The translations under genes were made by a program, and so were the position numbers. This document shows positions 12,222 to 28,914 of a stretch of DNA of 64,000 nt, one piece after another (the first letter of the stretch is position 1; each line of letters starts with the position of its first letter). The stretch is taken from positions 1 to 64,000 of the forward strand of contig JACQBC010000019.1 of NCBI GenBank assembly GCA_016194635.1. Reading direction: 5' to 3'. The notes beneath the pieces were generated by a model. That model saw only the letters and a program-made list of their open reading frames with translations, searched no databases and was not told the DNA's origin. Source of the stretch: Gammaproteobacteria bacterium. Its GTDB lineage: Bacteria > Pseudomonadota > Gammaproteobacteria > UBA6429 > Thiohalophilaceae.

Positions 12222-12224
12222 ATA

Positions 12225-12356
12225 TTACTAAGTCACATGGAAAGGATAGCCCCCCACCAAGACATGCCGTCAATACCTCCCTGTAGGCTCGACAGCAGCA
12301 TCCCTGCGGCGGACGGCCTTGGTGGGGGGTATCCTTTCCATACGCCTCATTAGTAA
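12225..12356. repeat. long palindromic repeat R1
   Basis: 132 bp. The arms TTACTAAGTCACATGG...CACCAAGAC and its near-complement ending CATTAGTAA enclose a core with CGTCAATACCTCCCTGTAG, CTCGACAGC, and GCATCCCTGCGGCGGACGG. It has the same organisation as R2-R6. It lies inside the decayed end of the array. Confidence 0.85.
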
Positions 12357-16900: not shown

Positions 16901-16913
16901 GTCGCCACGCATA

Positions 16914-17046
16914 TTACTGAGTCACATGGACAGGATACCCTCCCACCAAGACACGCCGTCAATACCTCCCTGTAGACTCGACAGCCGCATCCCTGCGGCG
17001 GACGGTCTTGATGGGAGGGTATCCTGTCCATGTGACTCATTAGTAA
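16914..17046. repeat. long palindromic repeat R2
   Basis: 133 bp. Arms of about 39-42 bases differ only by a 3-base indel near the tip and one mismatch. Relative to R1, GGAAAGG has become GGACAGG with the matching change CCTTTCC to CCTGTCC on the other arm, which is a compensating pair. Core CGTCAATACCTCCCTGTAG followed by GCCGCATCCCTGCGGC. Confidence 0.88.
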
Positions 17047-24385: not shown

Positions 24386-24515
24386 TACTGAGTCACATGA
24401 AAAGGATACCCTCCCATCAAGACCGTCAGCGGCAGGGATGCGGCTGTCGAGTCTACAGGGAGGTATCAACGGCGTGTCTTGGTGGGAGGGTATCCTTTCC
24501 ATGTGACTCAGTAAT
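24386..24515. repeat. long palindromic repeat R3 (core inverted)
   Basis: About 130 bp with the same arms as R2 (CTGAGTCACATG...GATACCCTCCCATCAAGAC), but the core is in the opposite orientation (GCGGCAGGGATGCGGC, CTACAGGGAGGTAT). This shows that the whole unit can lie either way round. Confidence 0.87.
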
Positions 24516-26663: not shown

Positions 26664-27203
26664 TCAATTCCGGGTTGGACGTTTTTGCAATTTGCGTTGC
26701 AAGGTGCGACGGTGCATGTTGAGACGGCGCGCGGTCTCAGAAATATTGCCGTCGCATTCGTTCAACACACTCTGAATATGTTCCCATTCCATGCGTGCCA
26801 CCGACAATGGCTTATCGGCCACCGGGGCTTGGGTATCACCTTCAATACGACTAAACGCTGCTAGGATAGTCTCTAGATTGGCGGGCTTGCTAAGATAATG
26901 TACCGCGCCGAGCTTGATCGCTTCCACTGCCGTGGTGATCGAAGCGTACCCGGTGAGCACCACAATGCGGGTGGCGGGATCGAGTTTAATCAACTCGGCC
27001 ACCAGTTCTAAACCTGAAGGTCCGGGCATTTTTAAATCGACAATCGCATATTCAGGGGGGTCTTGTTGCGCCAAGCGGCGGCCGTGGTGCACGTCATGCG
27101 CTACGTGTACGACGTAACCGCGCTTCTCCAAGGCACGGCTGAGCACCTCACAAAACGTGATGTCGTCATCGACGAGTAATACACTGATGCCTTCGTCGTT
27201 CAT
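26664..27203 (-). CDS. regA: RegA/PrrA/ActR-type response regulator
   Basis: 179 aa. Receiver domain with the acidic pocket VDDD, phospho-acceptor Asp56 (AIVDLKMPG), LTGYAS and the Lys in YLSKPAN. The short Fis-like C-terminal helix-turn-helix (WEHIQSVLNECDGNISETAR then RLNMHRRTLQRKLQKR) is the near-invariant RegA effector domain. It should control redox-dependent genes with RegB. Its start overlaps the regB stop by four bases. Confidence 0.92.
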   Translation of the reverse strand: MNDEGISVLLVDDDITFCEVLSRALEKRGYVVHVAHDVHHGRRLAQQDPPEYAIVDLKMPGPSGLELVAELIKLDPATRIVVLTGYASITTAVEAIKLGAVHYLSKPANLETILAAFSRIEGDTQAPVADKPLSVARMEWEHIQSVLNECDGNISETARRLNMHRRTLQRKLQKRPTRN

Positions 27204-28471
27204 GCGCTAGCGCTCACCTGTAGTGTTGCCAGCGGCAGACTCACGCGGCATACCACCCCGCCCCCAGCGCGATTAAATAACTGCACCTCACCACCTAGGC
27301 GCTGTAAGGTGGCATAGCTTAAAAACAAGCCCAATCCCAGCCCATCGGTCTTGGTGCTAAAAATTTTATCCCCGGCGTGCAGAGCGGCTTCGGGTGCAAG
27401 GCCGTTGCCTCGATCGGCAATCTCGATGTGTACCTGATTTGTATCCCAATGACATTCCCATTCGATTTGCTGCGGAGAGGCATCGGCGGCATTATTCAGA
27501 ACATTGGTGATGGCCTGCGTCAAGGTTTGTTCGGCGATGATCACCGGTTCCGGATCATTGCCGTGATAGTCTTCGCGTATTAACCTTATCCCCGGACGGC
27601 TTCGCTGCCACTGCGCGACAAGCTCGCGTAGAAATTGTGTCAACCCAATCCGCCGGCCACCTTCGGCACGCACCTGCCCGGCCGATGCCGCCAGCGATTG
27701 TAAAATTTGTTTGCAACGATCGATTTGCTCCACCAGAATGTTATGCGTGTCTAACGGCAGGGGTTTGCCGACTGCTAATTCACCGCTTAGGATCGACAAG
27801 GTTGCCAAGGGCGTGCCCAGTTCATGCGCCGCGCCGGCCGCCAACGCCCCTAAGGCCACCACCCGCTCTTGGCGTAAATCATGTTCCCGCATGCGCGCCA
27901 ATTGCTGTTCGCGGTTACGCACCGCCTGCGCCATACGCCCACCAAACCAGGCAATCAAAACCGCACTCAACACAAAACCAAACCACATCCCACCGATGTG
28001 CAGGGAAAATACCCGGTCGTGATGGTGTTCATCCTTGATCAGCGGCACAAAATGAAATATCAGCACGGCATAACACGACGTGCTCAATACCACCATGATC
28101 CAAGTATAGTGTTGCGGCAAACTCGCCGCGGTTAGGGCCAACGGGACCAAGTACAACATGACAAACGGATTGGTCGACCCGCCGGTTAAATATAAAAACA
28201 CCGTCAAACTCGCAACGTCAAAAATTAAATGCGCGAATAATTCCCGCTCGGTCACCCACCACGGTTGCTGCAAGCGCCACCAGACCACGGTGTTAAGCAA
28301 GGCCACCACGGCCAGTAAAAAACCAATTGCCCTCATCGGCAGACTCAAGCCTAACATCCCTTGCAACAACATCATCGCGCCAAGCTCCACCGCCACCGTT
28401 GCGTAACGTAATCGGCATAAACGCCGCAGATTTTGGCTTGCGGGGGAAACGAGGTTATCTATGGGTATCAT
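27200..28471 (-). CDS. regB: RegB/PrrB-type redox sensor histidine kinase
   Basis: 423 aa from the ATG at 28471. It has about six transmembrane segments, the periplasmic/quinone motif GGSTNPF (residues 97-103), the H-box AAHELGTPLAT with His216, and Cys253 in DRCKQIL at the place of the redox-active cysteine of RegB, then N-box (NVLNNAADAS) and G-boxes (DRGNGLAP; GLGLGLFLS). No strong ribosome-binding site is seen. With regA it forms an operon on the minus strand. Confidence 0.92.
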   Translation of the reverse strand: MIPIDNLVSPASQNLRRLCRLRYATVAVELGAMMLLQGMLGLSLPMRAIGFLLAVVALLNTVVWWRLQQPWWVTERELFAHLIFDVASLTVFLYLTGGSTNPFVMLYLVPLALTAASLPQHYTWIMVVLSTSCYAVLIFHFVPLIKDEHHHDRVFSLHIGGMWFGFVLSAVLIAWFGGRMAQAVRNREQQLARMREHDLRQERVVALGALAAGAAHELGTPLATLSILSGELAVGKPLPLDTHNILVEQIDRCKQILQSLAASAGQVRAEGGRRIGLTQFLRELVAQWQRSRPGIRLIREDYHGNDPEPVIIAEQTLTQAITNVLNNAADASPQQIEWECHWDTNQVHIEIADRGNGLAPEAALHAGDKIFSTKTDGLGLGLFLSYATLQRLGGEVQLFNRAGGGVVCRVSLPLATLQVSASA

Positions 28472-28564
28472 GCACTTATTGTAAACGTAGTTAAGCAACC
28501 CTGCCTGCCCACCCACCGGCAGAAAGGTTCTGCCGTCAAAAGGCTAAGCCCTACGAAACTTGGA

Positions 28565-28680
28565 CAGCGGTGTAGGCGGTTAGCCTCTTCACATGACACG
28601 CGTCAATACATCCCTGTAGCTCGGCGGCCGCATCCCTGCGGCCGGCGGTCATGTGAAGAGGCTAACCGCCTACACCGCTG
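28565..28680. repeat. palindromic repeat R4: same core, unrelated perfect arms
   Basis: 116 bp. The arms are a perfect 33-bp inverted repeat (CAGCGGTGTAGGCGG...CTTCACATGAC) with no similarity to the arms of R1-R3, R5 and R6. The core CGTCAATACATCCCTGTAG followed by GGCCGCATCCCTGCGGCC is the same. Confidence 0.88.
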
Positions 28681-28745
28681 AACTTAATATCGTATATCAA
28701 ACCCTGAACTACGCCTTAAAGACGATAAACTCATCCAATATTCAT

Positions 28746-28914
28746 GGCGATACGGATTGCATGTGGTTGGTTGCTATGTGGTGTGACCATCGGCCCACCA
28801 GTGCAGGGATGCACGAGGTAGTGCCATGCAGAGAGCAATTGCCGCAGGGATGCGGCCGTCGAGCATACGGGAAAGTATTTATAGGGAGTCACACCACAGG
28901 CAATCCGTATCGCC
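28746..28914. repeat. palindromic repeat R7, composite and core inverted
   Basis: 169 bp. Outer arms GGCGATACGGATTGC and GCAATCCGTATCGCC and inner arms GTGGTGTGAC and GTCACACCAC are perfect complements, separated on the left by a 17-base insertion. The core, inverted, holds GCCGCAGGGATGCGGC and CGTCGAGCATACGGGAAAG. A third arm set, unrelated to the others. Confidence 0.75.

Follow-up and report, generated by a model that had tools for sequence, protein, structure and literature searches.

How can a short repeat keep its centre while both halves of the long stem around it are replaced by other sequence that still pairs perfectly? The question is raised by R4, a 116-bp element in the 64,000-nucleotide stretch of gammaproteobacterial DNA analysed here (the window). 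Its two 33-bp arms are 50 nt apart, pair perfectly and flank a conserved core. Comparison of arms and cores reproduced what an earlier note had read from the letters, that the arms are unrelated to those of the repeats R1-R3, R5 and R6. We propose, with a probability of about 0.55, that R4 is a small palindromic repeat with a fixed two-hairpin core of ~52 nt and a free stem that is kept paired by self-templating together with selection. The features of the locus are as follows, with the GGA sense of the core on the minus strand (the GGA strand).

12223-12355, 16912-17045 and 24386-24513: R1, R2 and R3, R1-type repeats with the common ends TACTGAGTCACATGGAAAGGA
26664-27203, minus: response regulator ORF, with the histidine-kinase ORF
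27200-28516, minus: histidine-kinase ORF beside R4
28565..28597, plus: R4 left arm, 33 nt, the 3' arm on the GGA strand, 100% complementary to 28648-28680
28598..28647, minus: R4 core, 50 nt, kept in the copies of its own genome and aligning end to end with the RU-2 core
28607..28618, minus: core hairpin 2 with loop CAGGGATG (28609-28616), from the fold
28625..28644, minus: core hairpin 1 with loop CAGGGATG (28631-28638), from the fold and from covariation in relatives
28648..28680, plus: R4 right arm, 33 nt, the 5' arm on the GGA strand and presumed template
~28746..28914, plus: R4b, a private-arm copy in the opposite orientation to R4, with a longer core and an insertion in one arm
From 29047, plus: ORF without a Pfam match, on the other side of R4

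R4 sits between divergent genes. As RNA, its minus strand folded at -90.9 kcal/mol compared with a mean of -41.7 for shuffled sequences (sd 3.9, n = 200, z -12.5), and 0/200 shuffles folded as well. The ends of R4 lack a flush TA at this single filled site (..TTGGA before, AACTTAA.. after). AACTT is found near both ends (28554-28564 and 28681-28691), the left one not flush, possibly as a target duplication or by chance. The core of R4b includes an additional CAGGGATG hairpin, and one R4b arm has an insertion of ~15 nt; because more than 110 nt separate the two arms, R4b was left out of the copy counts.

The core is shared and the arms are private

Within the 3.7-Mb, 37-contig genome, a search allowing up to three mismatches recovered only R4's own two arms. 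The earlier note had considered that many copies with R4-type arms would make R4 simply a second subfamily, and with zero extra arm copies at this threshold we dropped a second shared-arm subfamily of the R1-R3-type repeats as a candidate. The core had many more matches. R4 had 42 matches in its own genome, its two-strand self-match included (40 of 119 candidates scored), and there were 53 exact matches to the core pattern. Parsing loci L001-L033 and L065-L105, and excluding copies with arms more than 110 nt apart, yielded 56 distinct copies with arms. These formed one arm cluster of 20 (the R1-R3 type), one of 12, and 24 singletons including R4. Private arms are thus common, and R4 is no exception. 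Arms without a mismatch or indel were present in 21 of 39 copies taken as private-arm, a set that includes L083, L086 and L100, which fall in a shared-arm cluster. The ends TACTGAGTCACATGGAAAGGA of the R1 type were listed 90 times in the genome at up to three mismatches, often paired ~107 bases apart. Scores for an outer inverted repeat flanking the copies of R4's own genome were like those of the control, with 5/56 copies above the control's 95% point, shared-arm copies among them.

It is near certain that R4 belongs to a core family spread across Gammaproteobacteria. The core was present in 14/40 genomes of the family, R4's own included (E <= 1e-5), with an uneven distribution: 23 copies were scored in G043 and 0-1 in each of seven congeners. 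In an even draw of gammaproteobacterial genomes it occurred in 45/369 genomes and 41/272 genera. A pattern scan of titled genomes found at least 116 stretches with at least 127 pattern matches, and the matches listed include Marinobacter, Microbulbifer, Cellvibrio, Stenotrophomonas, Halopseudomonas, Rheinheimera and Luteimonas. Two copies (L273, L280) came from a MAG labelled Klebsiella pneumoniae, a label that may be wrong. The plasmid search returned a single 25-nt match, from Halomonas. One stretch from Marinobacter sp. 1-4A (L225:3852-4137) scored 118 bits with the Rfam model 5_ureB_sRNA, whose threshold is 40.

The enclosing stem had a median length of 28-35 bp in most sets. In G007 the arms shared the ends GCCC and TTTCGTGAC around a middle that varied and was mostly still paired, and in G012 both substitutions and one-base length changes were mirrored in the two arms. 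The palindrome was nested in a larger inverted repeat starting near TAAATAGCTGTTCCGAATACC in G012, G021 and part of G007.

Both core loops of R4 fit CANGGANG on the GGA strand, which we take to be the CsrA/RsmE consensus. The loop of hairpin 1, which lay outside the search pattern, was CANGGANG in 89 and contained GGA in 110 of the 116 relatives listed. R4's own genome contains one CsrA gene. The core therefore probably acts as RNA, judging from the fit of its loops to this consensus and the presence of the CsrA gene. In the excerpts available of an Alcanivorax sRNA paper the subject is CsrA-related sRNAs, not repeats. With ORFs called by length only, convergent neighbours outnumbered divergent ones by 36:13 in the family set (99/116 counted, 8 inside an ORF) and by 21:6 in the broad set (63/100 counted, 20 inside an ORF call and 17 without a neighbour). 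Copies thus lie near gene 3' ends and the divergent setting of R4 is the rarer kind. Relative to tandem genes, the family set had 15 sense and 35 antisense copies and the broad set 17 sense and 19 antisense copies; these counts give a sense-mRNA role no support.

Paired changes and strand polarity in the arms

Covariation was scored on relatives from the broad set, for which 127 pattern matches were listed, 10 were cut by sequence ends, 117 were tried and 116 were distinct. Arms scored at least 9 in 100 of the 116 listed, with a median of 28 bp and 27 without a mismatch. The 56 relatives with a 52-nt core and an arm score of at least 16 were aligned. Among them 93.4% of 1848 cells were paired, against 64.8% after shuffling and 32-42% after sliding, and both-sided changes occurred in 25/33 pairs. 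Pairing in the arm helix reached 97.8%, a value raised by construction since copies were chosen for paired arms, and many positions showed all four Watson-Crick types. Hairpin 1 was not chosen for, and it covaried with both-sided changes in 10/11 pairs. Hairpin 2, being included in the search pattern, was invariant here; its stem does vary in the genus of G311. RNAalifold gave essentially the same fold on these relatives. What is conserved is thus both the sequence and the structure of the core, but only the pairing of the stem around it.

Comparison of nearest-neighbour arms, in which reciprocal pairs were counted twice, showed the same concert. Among 22 copies in G007 and G021, paired changes numbered 115, including 70 transversions, and one-sided changes 11; the corresponding counts were 7 and 1 in three comparisons in G012, and 295 and 50 in 30 comparisons in G000, R4's own genome, where the arms compared were mostly unrelated. 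Mismatches can persist, as most G043 copies carried two mismatched pairs in 19. The earlier note had argued that drift cannot easily replace both arms, and we agree: arms that differ in concert, as these do, are not the product of independent drift.

The arms also differ from each other by strand. We compared 146 elements, one per arm cluster, with the inner three pairs omitted. Transition mismatches on the GGA strand were G.U in 122 cases and A.C in 24. G-C exceeded C-G in 97 elements and the reverse held in 37; U-A exceeded A-U in 91 and the reverse held in 35. Random arm flips reached any of the three polarity sums in 0/20000 trials, and among the subsets the signal was weakest for G.U within the family set (p 0.005) and for U-A within the broad set (p 0.0015). 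Pair counts were GC 531, CG 354, UA 416 and AU 255 in the 62 clusters of the family set, and GC 774, CG 526, UA 409 and AU 307 in the 92 clusters of the broad set. In a perfect palindrome, mutational strand bias alone should not be able to set the 5' arm apart from the 3' arm. If the 5' base decides how a G.U intermediate is resolved, the products are G-C and U-A. The excerpted text of PMC8794818 predicts this direction from a template-switch model, with intrastrand correction from the 5' arm, and also reports the same G-C/U-A asymmetry in ordinary RNA stems, so that the asymmetry of the arms is support for templating and no proof of it. For R4, the asymmetry points to the right arm, which is the 5' arm on the GGA strand, as the putative template.

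Under plain structural selection, the arms would drift by ordinary single mutations, and a functional RNA or single-stranded DNA would retain just those combinations that pair. This would account for the one-strand excess of G.U and for the strong covariation of the arms and hairpin 1. However, at the variable pairs of helix 1 in the 56-relative alignment, one-sided standard changes numbered 0-2 per pair against 9-36 both-sided changes, and paired changes were often transversions. Selection for stability would raise G-C and C-G alike, yet C-G is low and U-A exceeds A-U. We regard structural selection as an unlikely full explanation. Our best inference, resting on the paired transversions and the polarity, is that self-templating keeps the arms paired, with structural selection and swapping contributing alongside it.

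Under self-templating, the nascent GGA-sense strand would fold at the core during DNA replication, and the folded strand would use its 5' arm as the template for rewriting the 3' arm, often through a G.T intermediate. Selection on the folded GGA strand would be a second force. Mutation and correction would move both arms jointly off any ancestral sequence, and recombination through the common core would add wholesale arm swaps. Given these processes, the unrelated perfect arms of R4 would represent an old or swapped state and not captured flank. This data set does not separate change in situ from swapping with other copies. A more specific idea, which we put forward tentatively, is that the core is itself a stem-maintaining device that primes 5'-to-3' copying of the arms with fixed polarity, at times into the flank.

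Orthologous places and empty sites

Another route to unrelated perfect arms is flank capture, in which the core copies neighbouring DNA backwards at insertion so that one arm would be original flank and its partner an inverted copy of it. The uniqueness of the R4 arm within its genome is consistent with such an origin. We looked for traces of it at the R4 site itself and in two other genera.

At the R4 site, the intergenic region of the congener G001 contained no significant copy of a single R4 arm: the best match was 12/13 with a gap (p 0.08), a score equalled by 3/56 own-genome arms including those of R4. An earlier comparison on a shorter stretch had given p 0.53. Between this genome and other genera, the copies at some corresponding intergenic places (L014/L060) have different arms and are too diverged for alignment.

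In the genus of G286, a core-bearing MITE of ~241 bp lies between two genes in 2/6 genomes (G286, G405). The genes, named from their translations, are presumably LptF/G-like and RDD-like. The flanks adjoin without the MITE in G406 and G409 and are 66 bases apart in G408; for G407, a flank match was absent among the rows listed. At base level, the filled site differed from the empty sites of G406 and G409 by the MITE and some ten further bases, with the arms inside the MITE. In this one genus the core-bearing MITE entered together with its arms, at a site that three congeners have empty. The MITE of G286 (L338), TTACTGTGAAAG...AACGTTA, has very many copies, with at least 55 matches listed (40/511 candidates scored), and these make a good set for dating insertions.

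The richest comparison came from one place in the genus of G311, which is probably Stenotrophomonas because a sequence titled S. maltophilia (L235) has the same arms and flank. We searched 61 genomes and fetched 30 loci, labelling the arm types ourselves. Type A was found at three loci, B at nine, C at one and D at three, together with one unpaired hybrid, four empty sites and nine rearranged or element-less loci. Types A, C and D align with one another with paired changes and some mismatches. Both arms of type B are different beyond the inner 11 bp, and 7/8 of the type B rows besides L374 (nine rows in total) keep one or two mismatches.

At the four empty sites of this genus the outer 15 bp of one 26-bp arm are retained, a remnant of the kind that flank capture would leave. 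On a tree of the right flank, however, the types were scattered (17 changes against a shuffled mean of 17.4), and element-bearing rows fell on both sides of the midpoint root. With this scatter and rooting, the empty sites better fit deletion between short GTC repeats plus allele exchange than an ancestral state. The earlier note had proposed that a single copy of the arm at empty sites would reveal a captured and inverted flank. Part of a single arm is indeed there, and the tree does not favour reading it as ancestral, so this comparison can mislead.

The type B allele also resembles a palindrome extended into its flank. Its 3' flank carried an inverted copy of the 5' flank in 8/8 rows tested of the nine (p 0.0055-0.036), rows that count as one shared event, and five A and D rows gave p 0.37 or more. 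The 5' flank may here have been copied into the 3' flank in the 5'-to-3' direction, by foldback copying that ran beyond the arms.

Subfamily arms are inherited and alignable, the G286-genus MITE brought its arms along, and the G001 site lacks a significant arm copy. Together with the scattered empties, these results make flank capture at insertion very unlikely as the origin of R4. The earlier claim that the arms must be templated thus divides: the concerted paired changes and the polarised signature support templating, and the inherited, alignable arms speak against inversion-duplication of flank at insertion.

Least probable is that R4 simply acquired both arms at once by recombination through the common core with another copy or strain, a process visible in the hybrid L376 (left arm type A, right arm type B), in the fused copies L382, L390 and L394 and in the scatter of types A, B, C, D and empty at one place, but one that relocates arms without creating them and for which R4's own genome holds no donor.

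Comparison with known systems

REP/REPIN elements of RAYT (Y1) transposases resemble the R4 family as short, intergenic, many-copy sequences that form hairpins. The Y1 transposase (PF01797) had 0 matches in R4's own genome, in G001, in G021 and in G043, one to three matches each in G007, G012 and G017, and was found in 27/40 genomes of the family. We rejected a RAYT-driven REP origin for lack of PF01797 in the own genome, which favours the view in the earlier note that R4 does not behave as an ordinary REP element. In the openly licensed literature we found no report of a conserved core with private paired arms.

A known relative is the Yersinia palindromic sequence YPAL/RU-2, described in the excerpts of Delihas 2007 (PMC2759123, citing De Gregorio 2006) as a MITE of 167-168 bp, present in 60 intergenic regions of Y. 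pestis, with a TA duplication at its target. Like the R4 family it is intergenic and has many copies. The two share the two-hairpin core on the same strand: R4 aligned to RU-2 with a score of 24, compared with 22.5 for the best of 1000 shuffles and 12.5 on the opposite strand, and the alignment covers exactly the R4 core and none of the arms. As far as the published excerpts describe it, RU-2 differs in its 168-bp length and in its arms and outer ends, against 116 bp and private arms in R4.

Rfam gave no match for the R4 locus (L031) at E <= 1 and none at threshold for the whole window. The consensus of RF02770, Ysr224 (Yersinia sRNA 224), aligned over the core letters of the relative L238 with 37.3 bits against a threshold of 70. 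This below-threshold match is on the opposite strand, and the score alone is weak because hairpin models of unrelated miRNAs reach comparable scores on L238. According to the excerpts of PMC9029176, Ysr224 is one of the sRNAs annotated most frequently in genomes of bacteria. One core appears to link YPAL, Ysr224 and repeats of many genera, and it possibly binds CsrA.

In behaviour there is a likeness to the template-switch hairpins of Monttinen and Loytynoja 2022 (PMC8794818), which in the excerpts available share perfect stems, multibase paired changes and an excess of G-C and U-A with the R4 family. Those hairpins lie in rRNA and microRNA genes, whereas the R4 family is a dispersed repeat with a fixed core. 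Both bear on how long stems stay perfectly paired while their sequence changes, and the excerpted text calls its own strongest evidence for stem maintenance circumstantial. A many-copy repeat is a natural large-sample test of this question, and the strand-specific prediction of the template-switch model holds in this data set. If the core is indeed a stem-maintaining device, the repeat would be a palindrome that corrects itself, with one polarity of arm rewriting shared by its copies throughout Gammaproteobacteria.
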